A program made the position numbers and the translations under genes. From the NCBI GenBank assembly GCA_038043445.1, contig JBBTBY010000099.1:1-33576 (forward strand): DNA of 33,576 nucleotides. Reading direction: 5' to 3'. Under the pieces are notes generated by a model, which saw only the letters and a program-made list of their open reading frames with translations, was not told where the DNA came from and ran no database searches. Origin of the DNA: Spirochaetota bacterium (GTDB lineage: Bacteria > Spirochaetota > Brachyspiria > Brachyspirales > JACRPF01). Each line of letters opens with the position of its first letter. Positions within the stretch are counted from its first letter, which is position 1. This document shows, piece after piece, positions 9,290 to 24,917 of this stretch.

Positions 9290-12200
9290 CTATTTCCCTG
9301 AAAGAATTCGTATTCGCCACGCGACGAATTTATCCATCGCCGGATCGAATTCCCGCTCCGGCTGGGTGTACGCCGCGTATTCACGGTAGAACGGCAATGC
9401 ATCCTTCGGCTTTCTTACATATTCCAAACGCATACCTTTCAGGAGTGCTATTCTCGTCGGGATGTAATGCGCGCGCATGAGGTCTTCCATAGCAGCTTCA
9501 TTCGTTTTCCCCGCAAGGTATGCAGCAGAGATGGCAAGCTCTCCGCCCCATGCGTTCGAGTGGTCGGTGAATATCCGCTTATATTCTTTGGCGAGAACGG
9601 TATCGCGGTCGCTCATAAAGCGCAGATATCCCGGCAGGAGAAAATGAGAGAATTGATGATGCATCATCCAGCGGTTATAGTCTATAGCTTCTTTTGAAAG
9701 CGAACTGAATTCTTCGAATGCAGACAATCTGTCGCCATCGATATACCGAGCGAGCGCACGAAGTGATCGTGCAAAATAAACCGCATCATTCTCATAGGGG
9801 TAATTCGACACCGCACCGCTATAGTCACCCAATGCCGTAAGTGCAAGCGAGCATTTCTCACGCTGTTCGGTATAGTTCGAGAGTACATACGCGTATTCAC
9901 CAAGATGCAGATAGGTACGCGCACATTTCTCACGCTGATCACTGTAGTTGGATAGTATGTTCGTAAATTGTTTCGTATACAGCAAGGCGATGGCATGACA
10001 ATCGTACTGCCCCATGCAATTCGAGAGCGTGCTCTGATAGTCTCCTAGGGCAAGGATCGCATACTGACAAATCCTTTTTTGATCGTGATATTTTGTCAGC
10101 AGCTCATCAAATCTGCCAAGCGCGATCATCGCATTGGCACAGTACCAACGCTGATCGGGGTATTTGTCGACTATATCCTTGAATTTCCCCTGCATTTTCA
10201 AGGCAGCGGCACATTGTTCCCGCTGGTCAGAGTAGTCGCGAAACACCTCATCATATCGGCCAAGCCGATTCAACGCCCGAGCACAGGGATACCGCTGATC
10301 TGAATAGTTACGAAGCACTTCATCATTCCGGCCGAGCTCTGTGAGCGCTAACGCACAATGAAATCGCTGATCGGGATATTCCCTCAGCACCCTCTCGGGC
10401 TGCCCCATTTGCCTATACGCGCTTGCACACTCAATTCGCTGATCGGGATACTTATCAACAATCTCTTTCCTTCGCCCCAACGTATGAAAAGTAAAAGAGC
10501 AGACCGCTCGTTGTTCCGGATAGTATTTCAGTATATCATCATATCTCCCCAGTCGATACAAAGTCCAGGCCACTTGGTGGCGCTGATCCGGATATTTTTT
10601 AATCACATCATCATACATACCTGCCGCCTGCAGAAACTCAGCAGCCCTTCTTAAGAATGAATTATTACGGCCCGATACATGAAGTATGGATTCCCAGCGG
10701 CGTATCGCAACCCGTGCATTCTCGAACTGTGAGAAAAGCTTCTCATCACGGGCCCCTGATCTATAGCCGTTAAAGACGTTCATGTACTGTTTCGTTATCT
10801 GATACATGACGAGCTTACATGCCGGGTGATGCTGATACTTGGCGATCTGTTCGAAGATAGCATTCGCTTCATTCGTATCTCCAAGGTCAAGATGTATCTT
10901 GCCTCGTTCATACAGGGCATATGCGGCATAAAAGCTCTTCGGGTGCTTTCTTGTGTATTGCTCGAACGATCTTTCTGCTGCGTTCGCATCGCCCCCACGC
11001 AGGCGGGACATGGCGATCTGAAATTCTGCGCGTTCTGACATCTCGCCCGAATATTGTGAGGCGATACTCCCATATTCTACCGCCGCGTTGCTGTAATACC
11101 CGAGTCGATACAGCGTATCAGCAGCGATTATCGTTCCCGTTTTTTCCGGAAGCCCCATGGAATATACCCTTACCGCATGTATATCGATCACCTCGCCTTC
11201 CTTGCCCGCTATACTGACACGGTAATCACCGGCGCCGGGTATGGTATCCTGGTCATAGAATTCGATAATGCGCTTGCCATCGATATACATACGGACCGTA
11301 TTCCCGTCTTTTTCCATTACAAGCGAATACCGCCGATCCAGTTTGAGATATGATCCAAGCACGGCGGTATCAAGCATTACACCGTTCTTAGTGAAATACA
11401 CATCACTGGGAGTAGATGAGATATTGTACACCGCATACCGTTCTTGCGTGTTCGTATCTGCATTCTCGATAAGAAGCTGAAAAACACCGCATCGCTTGAA
11501 TTGCACATCGAATACCGCCCGAAACGATCCGTGTACGGTAGCGATCGACTGCAGCTGTTCCATCCCAAGCACCCCTGAGAAACGGAACACACCATTTGAC
11601 TGCATGCCGATATGTTCAATGGCATTTCGCTTGAGCGGATCGAAAGCCCTTTCTCTATTGAACACCTCATACCAGCGGTTCGTATAGTCGAGCGGACCGC
11701 CGTTGAACGTCTCCGTGAATTCATACTTCCACGTGAACGCCTCTTTCAGCCGCTCACCGTAGAAGATAAAAAGAGCAACGACACCTATCAACACCGCGGC
11801 AACGGAAGGAATGATGATGGCCTTATGCTTCTGCATCTTCTTCGACACGATATACATCACCGACGGCGGCCGGGCATGTATCGGTTCATCCGCGCGGAAA
11901 CGCGCAATATCCGCACGCATCTCCTTTACGCTTTGATACCGCCTCACGGGGTCCTTCTCCAGCGCTTTGAGCACTATCGTTTCAAGGTCTTTCGGCACCT
12001 TCCCGTTGATGCTCCGGGGAGACACGACGCTTTTATCACGAAGCGATCCGATATCCGAAAGTATATTGCCGCTCGACGTGAACCACTTCTCTCCCGTAAG
12101 CACATAATAGAGTATAGCCCCGAGGGAGAATATATCTGAGCGTTCGTCCGCCTTCTTCGCAAGCTCGGCCTGTTCGGGCGCCATATAATCGATGGTGCCG

Positions 12201-14119
12201 ACCACCTGCTGCGTCATCGTAAGGTCGCCCTCACCGCGCTCGAAACGCGCAAGCCCGAAATCCATCACCACCGGGTCGCCGTTCCTTTTTATCATAACGT
12301 TCGCGGGCTTAAGATCGCGATGAATGATGCCTTTCTCATGCGCGAACTCAACGCCCGCGCAGATGCCATCGAAAATAGCGAGCGCATGCGTGACCGGGAG
12401 GGCGCATACACTCACCCCGTCACGCGAGTCGCCGTCCGTGGCTCGCGCGAGCTGCGCCGTCCGTGGCGCATGCCCTTCCCACGGCTCGCTCTTTTTGCTC
12501 CCTACCCCCTTCCCCTCTCTCACGTCCCTGGGAGAGAGGGGAAGGGGGCTAGGGGGTTGGGGTGAGTGTCTCCCCGCCTCCACCCTGCTCACCATAGTAT
12601 CGATCGTGTCCCCGTCCTTATGCGCTATCGATGAACCTGCAAGATCACCGAGCGTGACACCCGGCAATAATTCCATCGCGATATAGCTTATTCCTTCGTA
12701 CTGTCCCACATCGACAACGCGGCAGACATTGCGATGATCGAGGAGCTTCATCACTTCCGCCTCGCGCATGAAACGGTGAAGCTGCTCGGATGTCGCACCT
12801 TCACCGGCGAGGAGCATCTTCACCGCGACATCATTGCCGAACATGTCGCGTGCCTTCCACACCTCGGCCATGCCGCCCTTTCCGATGCGTTCTATTAACC
12901 GATATTTACCGAACACCTTTTCCGTGCTCGCCGCTTTCTCGTCGGAAAGGAATTCCTTCACGGTGAACTTCATCGCGGATTCATCAGCCACCGACACCGC
13001 TTCTATCACCGGCAATGGATCATCGACGCCTTTCACTTTTACTGCGTAGAGATAACGGAACTGATAGAGCGGACTGTCCTTCGGGCCGATGCTCACGACA
13101 ACGCCGCGTAGCTCTTCGGGGAGATCGAAAACACCTTCAGTCTTTTCGCCAAGTGATTGCACGCGCTCCCCTTCCCCTCTCTCACTTCCCTGTGAGAGAG
13201 GGGAAGGGGCCGGGGGATGGGGTGAGTGTACATTCCACCCTTCCGGCAGGTTATCCATTATCTCTTTCAGTGTCGCCTGCGTACAGATGACCTGCAGCCC
13301 CTGTGCGGCACCGCATAAACGCGCAGCGAGATTCACCGAACTTCCGAGCACGGTGTAATTCATCCTCGCTTCGCTGCCGATATTCCCCACGACCATCTCG
13401 CCGGTATTGATCCCGATGCCGCAGGCGGGCATCACTTTGCCGTGCTTGAGGTATTCTTCCTGCAGCGCCCTGAGATTTCTCACTTGATCGAGCGCCGTCT
13501 TCACGGCGCGCAGCGCATGGTCCTTGTAATGACGCGGCGCGCCGAAGAGCGCCATCACTTCATCACCGACGATCTTATCGATGGTGCCGTTATTATCCTC
13601 GACGGCCTTCATCACCGCTTCGAGATATGCGTTTATCGTTTCGCGCACTTCCTCGGGGCGCATCTTCTCGCTCATGGCGGTGAACCCGCGGAGGTCGGTG
13701 AACGATACCGACATGAATCGCCTTTCGGGAATAGCGAATGTCGACTTCTCATCGTCGGTAAGATCGGAGAGGCCTTTCTGTACATATCTCCCGACATAGG
13801 CACGCAGCTGTTCTATCTCGGTCTTTTCAGTTATCGTAATGTCCGCGCCGCCGCCGACGCCTATCGCCTTCATTTCGAATACACGGCCGTCAGCGCTCGT
13901 TCCGTTGTACTGCTTTTTCTCTTTCGCGCCGGGGAGCGCGACGCCCTTGAATATTTCACAACCGGGCAGGCGGGTTATCGCATCGAATGCGGCACCGATC
14001 ACCTGTTCTTTGGGGAGTCCGATATATTGTACGAACGCAGCGTTGGCATAGTCGATGGTGCCGGCGGCGCTCACGTGGAGCATCATGGTCTTGACGACGA
14101 ACGACAGTTCTTCCGGCAC
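9290..14119 (-). CDS. PAS / class III adenylate cyclase / Ser-Thr kinase / TM / TPR and 24-residue-repeat receptor fusion
   Basis: This 1609-residue protein starts at GTG 14119 behind a GGGGTGA ribosome-binding site. A PAS-like domain (~1-110) is followed by a class III nucleotide cyclase: metal Asp142 (FTDLRGFT) and Asp186 (GDE), substrate residues Lys182 and Thr256 (class IIIb pair), Asn263 and Arg267. Next is a Ser/Thr kinase with IGKGGMAEVW, Lys434, HRDLKPAN (Asp602), D620FG and an APEQ motif. A single transmembrane helix (~768-790) leads to a LamG-like sandwich (~800-990), TPRs (~995-1170), eleven 24-residue repeats (1176-1439) and a TPR-like C-terminus. It is probably a membrane receptor: cytoplasmic cyclase and kinase, exterior sensor (topology inferred). 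Palindromic repeats insert at ~298-318 and, inside the kinase domain, ~500-575. Both enzymes keep their key residues. Confidence 0.9.
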   Translation of the reverse strand: MPEELSFVVKTMMLHVSAAGTIDYANAAFVQYIGLPKEQVIGAAFDAITRLPGCEIFKGVALPGAKEKKQYNGTSADGRVFEMKAIGVGGGADITITEKTEIEQLRAYVGRYVQKGLSDLTDDEKSTFAIPERRFMSVSFTDLRGFTAMSEKMRPEEVRETINAYLEAVMKAVEDNNGTIDKIVGDEVMALFGAPRHYKDHALRAVKTALDQVRNLRALQEEYLKHGKVMPACGIGINTGEMVVGNIGSEARMNYTVLGSSVNLAARLCGAAQGLQVICTQATLKEIMDNLPEGWNVHSPHPPAPSPLSQGSERGEGERVQSLGEKTEGVFDLPEELRGVVVSIGPKDSPLYQFRYLYAVKVKGVDDPLPVIEAVSVADESAMKFTVKEFLSDEKAASTEKVFGKYRLIERIGKGGMAEVWKARDMFGNDVAVKMLLAGEGATSEQLHRFMREAEVMKLLDHRNVCRVVDVGQYEGISYIAMELLPGVTLGDLAGSSIAHKDGDTIDTMVSRVEAGRHSPQPPSPLPLSPRDVREGKGVGSKKSEPWEGHAPRTAQLARATDGDSRDGVSVCALPVTHALAIFDGICAGVEFAHEKGIIHRDLKPANVMIKRNGDPVVMDFGLARFERGEGDLTMTQQVVGTIDYMAPEQAELAKKADERSDIFSLGAILYYVLTGEKWFTSSGNILSDIGSLRDKSVVSPRSINGKVPKDLETIVLKALEKDPVRRYQSVKEMRADIARFRADEPIHARPPSVMYIVSKKMQKHKAIIIPSVAAVLIGVVALFIFYGERLKEAFTWKYEFTETFNGGPLDYTNRWYEVFNRERAFDPLKRNAIEHIGMQSNGVFRFSGVLGMEQLQSIATVHGSFRAVFDVQFKRCGVFQLLIENADTNTQERYAVYNISSTPSDVYFTKNGVMLDTAVLGSYLKLDRRYSLVMEKDGNTVRMYIDGKRIIEFYDQDTIPGAGDYRVSIAGKEGEVIDIHAVRVYSMGLPEKTGTIIAADTLYRLGYYSNAAVEYGSIASQYSGEMSERAEFQIAMSRLRGGDANAAERSFEQYTRKHPKSFYAAYALYERGKIHLDLGDTNEANAIFEQIAKYQHHPACKLVMYQITKQYMNVFNGYRSGARDEKLFSQFENARVAIRRWESILHVSGRNNSFLRRAAEFLQAAGMYDDVIKKYPDQRHQVAWTLYRLGRYDDILKYYPEQRAVCSFTFHTLGRRKEIVDKYPDQRIECASAYRQMGQPERVLREYPDQRFHCALALTELGRNDEVLRNYSDQRYPCARALNRLGRYDEVFRDYSDQREQCAAALKMQGKFKDIVDKYPDQRWYCANAMIALGRFDELLTKYHDQKRICQYAILALGDYQSTLSNCMGQYDCHAIALLYTKQFTNILSNYSDQREKCARTYLHLGEYAYVLSNYTEQREKCSLALTALGDYSGAVSNYPYENDAVYFARSLRALARYIDGDRLSAFEEFSSLSKEAIDYNRWMMHHQFSHFLLPGYLRFMSDRDTVLAKEYKRIFTDHSNAWGGELAISAAYLAGKTNEAAMEDLMRAHYIPTRIALLKGMRLEYVRKPKDALPFYREYAAYTQPEREFDPAMDKFVAWRIRILSGK
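9803..10594 (-). repeat. Eleven tandem 72-bp units encoding a 24-residue cysteine-ladder repeat
   Basis: Residues 1176-1439 are eleven uninterrupted units of exactly 24 residues. Typical positions are Tyr1, Pro/Ser2, Asp/Glu3, Gln4-Arg5, Cys8-Ala9, Ala/Leu11-12, Leu15-Gly16, Arg17, Asp/Glu19-20 and Leu/Val22. Nine of the eleven have Cys at position 8. Unit 1 has Val, and unit 9 shifts its cysteines to positions 1 and 7. The pattern suggests two short helices per unit, like a compressed TPR. The DNA copies have diverged, so this is an old protein repeat rather than a recent DNA duplication. Confidence 0.9.
12431..12467. repeat. Direct repeat / palindrome composite inside the kinase insert
   Basis: GCCGTCCGTGGC occurs at 12431-12442 and again at 12456-12467. 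The 12-bp palindrome GCTCGCGCGAGC lies between them at 12441-12452. It encodes part of an Ala/Arg/Thr-rich linker (HAPRTAQLARATDG) that has no kinase-family counterpart, so it looks like a second repeat element beside the CT-rich palindrome. Confidence 0.55.
12505..12548. repeat. CT-rich perfect palindrome, copy A, inside the kinase domain
   Basis: A 17-bp perfect stem (12505-12521 with 12532-12548) has a 10-nt loop. It shares stem sequence and the GGGGTGAGTGT flank (12560-12569) with copy B. It is translated on the minus strand as a Pro/Ser then Arg/Gly-rich stretch (HSPQPPSPLPL...). Confidence 0.85.
13168..13209. repeat. CT-rich perfect palindrome, copy B, between cyclase and kinase
   Basis: An 18-bp perfect stem (13168-13185 with 13192-13209) has a 6-nt loop and is followed by the same GGGGTGAGTGT flank (13220-13230). 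Copies A and B are 660 bp apart, a multiple of three, and both are read as HSP.PP.PSPL, so they are in the same reading frame. Confidence 0.87.
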
Positions 14120-23153: not shown

Positions 23154-24917
23154 CTACCAGTCGTCGGCGGCCTTCTTCTTGTTCGTCGAAGTCGTCGTAG
23201 TAGTTGTCGTCGCAGCTTTATTCGTCGACGTAGTCGTTGTAGTTGTAGTTGTTTTCGCTTTATCAGCGGCGGCCTTGGCATCAGCAGCGGCCTTATCGGC
23301 AGCAGCTTTATCCTTCTCCGCTTTTTCCTTCGCAGCTTTCGCGTCGGCAGCAGCCTTATCCGAAGCAGCCTTGGCGCTATTCGCGTCGGCAGCGGCTTTT
23401 TCCGCCTTCGCCTTGGCATCGTTCGCCGCCTTCGCATCAGCCTGCGCCTTCACTTTATCGGCTTCAGCCGTCTTCGCCCGTGCCTCAGCCTGTGCTTTCG
23501 CAGATTCAGCCTGCTTTCGCGCCGCCTCTGCTTCTTCTTTCGCGACACGCATGGTAACACGGTCAACTTTATCGGTGAGCGCTTCCTTGCTCTCGTATTT
23601 TTCAACGCCCTTGATATCGACGATACCGCGGACGTCCTCTATCGTGGATTTCTGCATGACAGCGACGCTCGCCATCGAATTCGATGAAGAGATATCGGCT
23701 TCCTGCAGTTCCGTAACGTTCGTATACCCGCCGGCATTCGTGATATCGATGACGCCGCGGAGCACCGCGACCTTCGATGTCGTTCCGTCGCTCGCTACCG
23801 AGAACGCCGTACCGGTGACCTTAAGGTTCGCACTGCCGGTGTCGATGGCATACGTGCTCTTTTTCCCGAGCTTGGGCACCGCGAACATGGCCTTGCCTTT
23901 CGTCACAACAATACCGGCGGTACCGCTTGCGGGACTCAGCTTCTTGAACTGCACCGATGAGAGCGGCGCGATCTTCACCACACCGATGGTCTTAAGATCG
24001 ACCGTCACCTCACCGTCAGCATCGGTTATCACTTCGTATCCGGCAGCGATCTTCGCGCCGATATTCGTCTTGACATCCGCGCCGTTCGCCTTCACCGCAT
24101 ACGTACCCTTTGCTTCGGTTATCGAACCGCTCGCCGCGACATATCCGCCGCCGCCGCCGTAGTAATTGAACGGTACGCCGCGGAGGAGATAATTGACCGC
24201 ATCCTTCGCACGGACATACTGGTTCATCGGGATCCAATAGACATAGATATCAGGGTAACCGCCGCGCTCGAGGCCGAGGAGGAGTTCCTTGTATTCCTCG
24301 GACTGTCCGAGCTGCCGTTTCGTAAGCGCCTTATAAAGGACGGCATCATTGGCGAAACGGGTGCGGGGATACTCTTCGGTAACGCGGTCAAGCCAGCCCA
24401 TGCCCTTCTTGAGGCTCTCCGCATCGCTGTAATAGCTGTAATACGTCATGCCGAGCCAGAGCATCGATAAGACCTTGAATTTCTGCTTGCCGGTGGTCTG
24501 ATTCGCCTTTTCGAAGCATTCTACCGCCGTCGTCTTGAGCGAGCGGTCTTTTTTTGCGAGCAGAAAGTACGCGACCCCCTTCAAGTGGCAGAGCTCACCT
24601 TTATCCCCGTCGGCCGCATCGACATTGAGGGCTTCGAAGTAGCTTTTCATCTCAACGGGCTTCCCGCGCCACAATACGCGCAGCGCCTCTCTCGCCTGAG
24701 CGGACATGGGGGAATCCCACACCGTCGCGGTCACGGATTCAGCCTTATCGGCCTGCACCGCTTTGCCGTGAGCGTTGGTGTCCTTGCTCTTGTCGGTCAT
24801 GATGTTGAAGTCTTTGATGAAATCGTCTTCCTCGGCATGCCGCGGTTTGCAGGATACGGCAACAAAGACGCATACTGCAGCAAGCATAAGGATCGTAAGC
24901 AGGCGTTGAGGTTTCAT
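23154..24917 (-). CDS. FecR-domain lipoprotein with TPR region and Ala/Lys plus poly-Thr tail
   Basis: This 587-residue protein is a predicted lipoprotein. The signal is residues 1-22 with Cys23 in AVSC, a relaxed spirochaete-type lipobox. Residues ~70-230 are TPR-like helices (ECFEKANQTTGKQKFKVLSMLWLGMTYY). Residues ~245-400 form a FecR domain: ADVKTNIGAKIAAGYEVITDADG, VVKIAPLSSVQF and GTAFSVASDGTTSKVAVLRGVIDI. Residues 460-550 are an Ala/Lys/Glu coiled-coil resembling TolA. The extreme C-terminus has two poly-Thr blocks, each followed by STNK, and ends KKKAADDW. GGAGGA precedes the ATG. Probably an envelope protein spanning periplasm or peptidoglycan; no FecI sigma or TonB partner is nearby. 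Confidence 0.88.
   Translation of the reverse strand: MKPQRLLTILMLAAVCVFVAVSCKPRHAEEDDFIKDFNIMTDKSKDTNAHGKAVQADKAESVTATVWDSPMSAQAREALRVLWRGKPVEMKSYFEALNVDAADGDKGELCHLKGVAYFLLAKKDRSLKTTAVECFEKANQTTGKQKFKVLSMLWLGMTYYSYYSDAESLKKGMGWLDRVTEEYPRTRFANDAVLYKALTKRQLGQSEEYKELLLGLERGGYPDIYVYWIPMNQYVRAKDAVNYLLRGVPFNYYGGGGGYVAASGSITEAKGTYAVKANGADVKTNIGAKIAAGYEVITDADGEVTVDLKTIGVVKIAPLSSVQFKKLSPASGTAGIVVTKGKAMFAVPKLGKKSTYAIDTGSANLKVTGTAFSVASDGTTSKVAVLRGVIDITNAGGYTNVTELQEADISSSNSMASVAVMQKSTIEDVRGIVDIKGVEKYESKEALTDKVDRVTMRVAKEEAEAARKQAESAKAQAEARAKTAEADKVKAQADAKAANDAKAKAEKAAADANSAKAASDKAAADAKAAKEKAEKDKAAADKAAADAKAAADKAKTTTTTTTTSTNKAATTTTTTTSTNKKKAADDW
23157..23540 (-). repeat. Low-complexity coding tail (Ala/Lys coiled-coil and poly-Thr duplication)
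   Basis: The last 128 codons of the FecR lipoprotein are nearly all Ala, Lys, Asp, Glu and Thr. Two runs of 8 and 7 Thr are each followed by STNK, a recent-looking duplication of about 13 codons. The opposite strand stays open for 327 codons only because of this bias. Confidence 0.85.

Follow-up and report, generated by a model that had tools for sequence, protein, structure and literature searches.

Towards its C terminus, a receptor-type protein of a Spirochaetota bacterium carries eleven repeats of exactly 24 residues, most of which have a cysteine at the same position, raising the questions of which type of repeat this is and whether the regularly spaced thiols have a function of their own. 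The gene lies in a stretch of 33,576 nucleotides (assembly GCA_038043445.1, contig JBBTBY010000099.1, positions 1 to 33,576 of the forward strand), referred to here as the window. A first-pass annotation, made from the sequence alone, had regarded the units as unlike TPRs and as belonging to no named family, and had proposed that the cysteines form a straight ladder outside the membrane, able to bind metals, form stacked disulfides or sense redox state.

Architecture of the receptor-type protein

The protein is arranged, from its N to its C terminus, as a questionable PAS-like domain, a class III cyclase, a Ser-Thr kinase, a transmembrane (TM) helix, a LamG-like domain, TPRs, the short repeats and a C-terminal helical part (Table 1). 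The PAS match in Pfam, near residues 16-47 of the 1609, is very weak. The metal motifs of the cyclase, FTDLRGFT and GDEVMALFG, can be seen in the sequence, and the HRDLKPAN, DFG and APE motifs of the kinase are all present. Nowhere in the protein is hydropathy higher than in the TM helix (2.90 over 19 residues, at 768). The LamG-like domain, for which Pfam gave no direct match in the window copy, was recognised via relatives that match PF06439 or PF19763 weakly; Pfam TPR matches begin at residue 1031.

Table 1. Features of the receptor-type gene and its product, in window coordinates
Feature	Position	Strand	Residues	Basis
Receptor-type protein, 1609 aa	9290..14119	-		ORF and translation, Pfam; GTG start
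Class III adenylate/guanylate cyclase domain	13265..13714	-	136-285	Pfam PF00211 E=6.1e-18
Ser/Thr protein kinase domain	11933..12898	-	408-729	Pfam PF00069 E=5.4e-40
Single transmembrane helix	11759..11824	-	about 766-787	Hydropathy
LamG-like (3-keto-disaccharide hydrolase/DUF6250-type) domain	11135..11722	-	about 800-995	Alignment with relatives, tree
Ordinary TPRs	10685..11122	-	about 1000-1145	Pfam TPR_6 E=1.3e-8, AF2 helices
Cryptic unit 0, in register, no Cys	10595..10666	-	1152-1175	Register and model helices
Eleven 24-residue shortened-TPR units	9803..10594	-	1176-1439	AF2 helices
C-terminal helical part	9293..9802	-	1440-1609	Common to paralogs (alignment), AF2 helices

With its kinase motifs intact, a single TM helix and a C-terminal ectodomain, the protein has the make-up of a membrane receptor Ser/Thr kinase. 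Judging sidedness from the one TM helix that follows it, the kinase is very probably cytoplasmic and the LamG-like, TPR and repeat part outside the membrane, where the repeats had originally been placed. PknB/PknD-type membrane-anchored Ser/Thr kinases and TOMM-type kinase/cyclase fusions likewise combine a kinase, a single TM and an extracytoplasmic sensor, but in the window protein the cyclase is N-terminal to the kinase, and the sensor consists of LamG-like, TPR and short repeat sections rather than the PASTA or propeller domains of those proteins; scores against the NCBIfam models NF033483, NF009651 and TIGR03903 are all far below the curated cut-offs. The neighbouring genes in the window encode an AraC regulator, GDSL esterases, a GH2-type enzyme and URO-D-like proteins, a context that weakly suggests carbohydrate sensing.

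An old array of uniform units

The regularity of the array proved to be as first described: positions 9803-10594 encode exactly 11 x 24 residues with zero indels. When the array is compared with itself, identity reaches 34%, 29% and 32% at lags of 24, 48 and 72, whereas the average over lags 5-79 is 6%. Position 8 is cysteine in nine of the eleven units, again as reported (residues 1207, 1231, 1255, 1279, 1303, 1327, 1351, 1399 and 1423); the two exceptions are unit 1, which has Val instead, and the degenerate unit 9 (CMGQYDCHAIAL...), whose cysteines occupy positions 1 and 7. In 20,000 shuffles of the array, one phase never held more than five of the 11 cysteines, and the ectodomain has only four further cysteines outside position 8 (877, 1101, 1368 and 1374). 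A twelfth unit, lacking Cys, lies upstream of the array and in register with it (unit 0, Table 1).

Mean pairwise identity between units is 36% at the protein level and 47% at the DNA level, and Tandem Repeats Finder reported no tandem repeat in the DNA of the array. The array is thus an old protein repeat, kept by selection on the protein; recent expansion of the DNA was rejected as an origin since no DNA-level tandem repeat is present.

A TPR-like unit shortened by ten residues

The structure of residues 1147-1350 (units 0-7) was predicted with AF2 from an alignment with seven relatives, giving a model with a pLDDT of 92.7 and a pTM of 0.81. Two helices strictly alternate within each unit, as in TPRs: helix A spans positions 5-14 (10 residues) and helix B positions 18-24 (7 residues), according to a DSSP string printing H for helix only, and the pLDDT of the helices is mostly 94-98. 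A longer model agrees, although its final units are predicted with a confidence of only about 50-60. As this longer model returned TPR matches of low TM-score, it was replaced by the shorter one for Foldseek searches, in which the nearest structures were TPR and PPR superhelices, all with E > 0.08 and with a best TM-score of about 0.5 in the PDB. Neither Foldseek nor a profile search of the PDB found a solved structure significantly matching the repeat, the profile matches, all weak, including the TPR proteins TTC0263, MamA and OGT.

Similarly, Pfam TPR models approach the units without reaching their gathering scores anywhere within the array. The units attain an E value of 0.005 at best, and the highest TPR score in a Planctomycetota relative is 19.9 bits for TPR_2, against a gathering score of 27. 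In one relative, positions 8-24 of the TPR_2 model fall on ARALEHQGRWAESLAAY in one unit, and positions 7-24 of TPR_1 on the neighbouring unit, below threshold; these matches set the register, a unit position being the TPR position plus one. Cys8 then corresponds to L7, Ala9 to G8, Leu12 to Y11, Gly16 to G15 and Val21 to A20, and the Tyr1 and Pro2 of the next unit to Y24 and P32. Missing from the unit are TPR positions 25-31, comprising most of helix B, and 1-3, which together make ten residues (7 + 3). At the signature positions of the TPR, W4, L7, G8, Y11, A20, Y24, A27 and P32 (PMC5074805), the array has R, C, A, L, V, Y, a deletion and P, respectively.

The unit is, in this register, a TPR shortened by ten residues, TPR-like yet no standard TPR. 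It shares with TPRs the helix-turn-helix form, the core motif LGRYDEVL..YP, variable groove positions and part of the signature, at positions 8 (small), 11, 24 (Tyr) and 32 (Pro). By contrast, TPRs have 34 residues where these gapless units have a uniform 24, with helices of 10 and 7 residues, no counterpart of W4 or A27 and scores below the gathering thresholds of the TPR models. The earlier view that the repeat is unlike TPRs does not hold, given the register, the profile matches and the AF2 helices, although with no significant structural match the kinship would rest on the motif register. That the repeat has no name was borne out: the units are not covered by any model in Pfam or NCBIfam, and nothing relevant was found in the literature on 24-residue TPR-like or leucine-rich repeat variant (LRV) repeats.

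The LRV of Azotobacter, a known 24-residue helical repeat in which an alpha helix is paired with a 3-10 helix and which is associated with an FeS domain, has the same unit length as the array. There is next to no chance that the array belongs to this class: Pfam searches found no LRV match for the units up to E=10 nor, to a limit of E=1, for the full-length protein; two alpha helices are predicted in each unit rather than an alpha and a 3-10 helix; and the listed Foldseek and profile matches include no LRV structure. The 1609 aa protein also differs in having no FeS domain. Likewise, the Sel1 (36-44 residues) and PPR (35 residues) families differ from the array in period, and their Pfam models do not match it.

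Distribution and relatives of the repeat

The repeat occurs at three further loci in the same genome, on contigs C124, C32 and C54, with copy number differing between paralogs, at 11 or 7. Two of these loci are cut at contig borders inside the array (L003 at the end of C32 and L004 at the start of C54), and C32 and C54 may carry the halves of one gene broken in assembly. No instance was found in the 392 other genomes sampled from the same phylum (392/392 lacking it), including the one genome of the same family, and a search of genome contigs with the full protein returned no confirmed relative. A scan of about 85,000 genomes with a DNA pattern representing the inter-unit turn gave two matches, L023 and L024. 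Only L023, from Planctomycetota bacterium MGR_bin350, proved to be related; L024 was rejected as a protein in which the match is single and isolated. Searches of plasmids and viral contigs found nothing.

The genome containing L023 (G393) harbours many more loci with the repeat, which is present in 9 of the 392 genomes sampled from its phylum, several of them with many paralogs. The two phylum samples have no listed genome in common and are taken to represent different phyla. The family consists of the paralogs in the window's own genome and of expanded sets in some Planctomycetota. At L023, a frameshift, possibly a sequencing error, separates the kinase/TM/LamG/TPR section from the repeats. 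The contig bearing this kinase relative (L023:2617-5995) has a coverage of only 1.2. In an unrooted tree of the LamG-TPR section, the three copies from the window's genome group together (100/100), with five G393 proteins as their neighbours (100/99) and the remaining 25 sequences separate, a topology that would fit one transfer between the phyla.

Cysteine at position 8

In the register described above, Cys8 takes the place of L7, a signature residue at a TPR interface position that faces the neighbouring repeat (PMC5074805). On a helical wheel of helix A computed without it, position 8 deviates by 10 degrees from the middle of the hydrophobic face, towards Leu12 and Leu15. Among the units of Planctomycetota relatives, 33 of 106 have Cys at this position, 22 Val and 21 Ala, while cysteine makes up just 28 of the 4730 residues elsewhere in their arrays. 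The four scored units of the C54 locus have Val, Tyr, Met and Cys (1/4), and neither there nor in Planctomycetota is the residue invariant. Cysteine is thus truly preferred at position 8, but as a member of the small hydrophobic set. Its rate is similar in kinase-type relatives (27/88 units) and in AraC-type relatives in which no TM was found (6/18), which makes a role dependent on oxidising surroundings outside the cell less likely. Considering both register and hydropathy, Cys8 most likely packs in the core of the solenoid.

It is improbable that the nine cysteines instead form a functional ladder along the receptor's outer face, whether as a redox switch, as stacked disulfides or as metal sites. 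Such a role would account for the strong concentration of Cys at position 8, and for its being most complete in the window's own genome: 20 of 26 units there have it, including 9/11 in this protein and 7/7 in the C124 paralog, a retention that would seem far above the apparent needs of mere packing and so counts against that reading. However, position 8 is on the hydrophobic face, Val or Ala substitute for Cys in relatives and Val, Tyr or Met at C54, and Cys8 is equally frequent in relatives that lack a TM and are presumably cytoplasmic. In TPR-like solenoids, moreover, positions one repeat apart are expected to be too distant for a disulfide. The ladder of thiols, the most striking claim made for this locus, is on these grounds disfavoured, and is probably ordinary packing. 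The first-pass annotation had named burial of the cysteines as simple core packing as grounds for refutation, and as far as register, hydropathy and substitution pattern can show, the ladder fails that check. Fainter still is the prospect that the repeat represents a separate minimal alpha-alpha solenoid class, with one of the shortest two-helix units, serving as a portable sensor on kinases and transcription factors, and that its cysteine-rich core, in the window's own genome, has additionally come to act as a zipper responding to redox state or metals.

A swapped module and its putative role in sensing

The module formed by the LamG-like domain, the TPRs and the short repeats is attached to a kinase and TM in most relatives, and to an AraC-type HTH without a TM in five. 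These five AraC-type proteins with short repeats (L035, L036, L043, L048 and L050) are from Planctomycetota, the HTH being identified by Pfam in L050 and by motif in the other four. In the window's own phylum, L060 (genome G070) is also of AraC type; its LamG-like domain is combined with ordinary TPR-like helices, the 24-residue repeats being absent, an arrangement that is possibly ancestral. All six AraC-type regulators share the LamG-like/TPR module with the window protein, and differ from it in having a DNA-binding output and no detectable TM segment. The swapping of outputs between kinases and AraC regulators marks the module as a sensor.

Unit positions 6, 10, 13 and 14 correspond to positions 5, 9, 12 and 13 of TPRs, which line the ligand groove. 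When the units of the window's genome and those of Planctomycetota were scored as separate groups, this set ranked 2nd and 3rd in entropy, respectively, of the 330 four-position sets in helix A. Such near-maximal variability is as expected if paralogs bind different partners.

The explanation that best accommodates these results, to which we assign a probability of about 0.72 as a whole, is that the array forms an alpha-solenoid whose 24-residue helix-turn-helix units either derive from the TPR or converge on it, and in which Cys8 would replace Leu7 of the TPR as a small hydrophobic residue that packs between one unit and the next. In an exchangeable sensor module made up of the LamG-like jelly roll, the ordinary TPRs, the solenoid and a C-terminal helical cap, the solenoid would lie distally; the module itself is likely periplasmic, preceded in the protein by one TM helix and by a cytoplasmic kinase fused to a cyclase. 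A groove lined by the variable helix A positions most likely binds a peptide, protein or glycan partner, and binding would alter how the receptor dimerises or folds and, through the TM, the output of the kinase and cyclase.

The array might, alternatively, be a purely structural spacer, with the number of copies (11 or 7) tuning the reach of the C-terminal cap from the membrane. The variation in copy number between paralogs and the conservation of core and turn residues are both consistent with a spacer, but the surface of helix A that matches the groove is among the most variable, as befits a binding surface, though also a neutral one, and a spacer from the membrane would be needless on AraC regulators that have no TM. 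A spacer role is accordingly judged unlikely, if somewhat less so than a cysteine ladder.

As a TPR-like solenoid, the repeat extends the TPR-like helical repeats by a 24-residue type that has no name, near the shortest two-helix unit able to stack, and it belongs to a sensor module exchanged between membrane kinases and regulators of the AraC type. A family model of the repeat would allow a large number of Planctomycetota receptors to be annotated, and such regular units could serve as a scaffold in the design of repeat proteins.

Other elements in the window

A palindromic element of roughly 60 bp (CCCCTTCCCCTCTCTC...GAGAGAGGGGAAGGGG) is present in two copies within the receptor gene, at window positions 13168-13228 and 12498-12568. 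Both are in frame, one in the linker between cyclase and kinase and the other inside the kinase domain, and encode PSPLSQGSERGEGE-like peptides. The element, which is reminiscent of the Rickettsia palindromic elements, has at least 30 copies genome-wide, including some in the paralogous genes on C124 and C54. Elsewhere in the window, positions 23154-24917 encode a FecR-like protein with a long low-complexity stretch rich in Ala, Lys and Glu, and a poly-Thr tail (TTTTTTTTSTNK).
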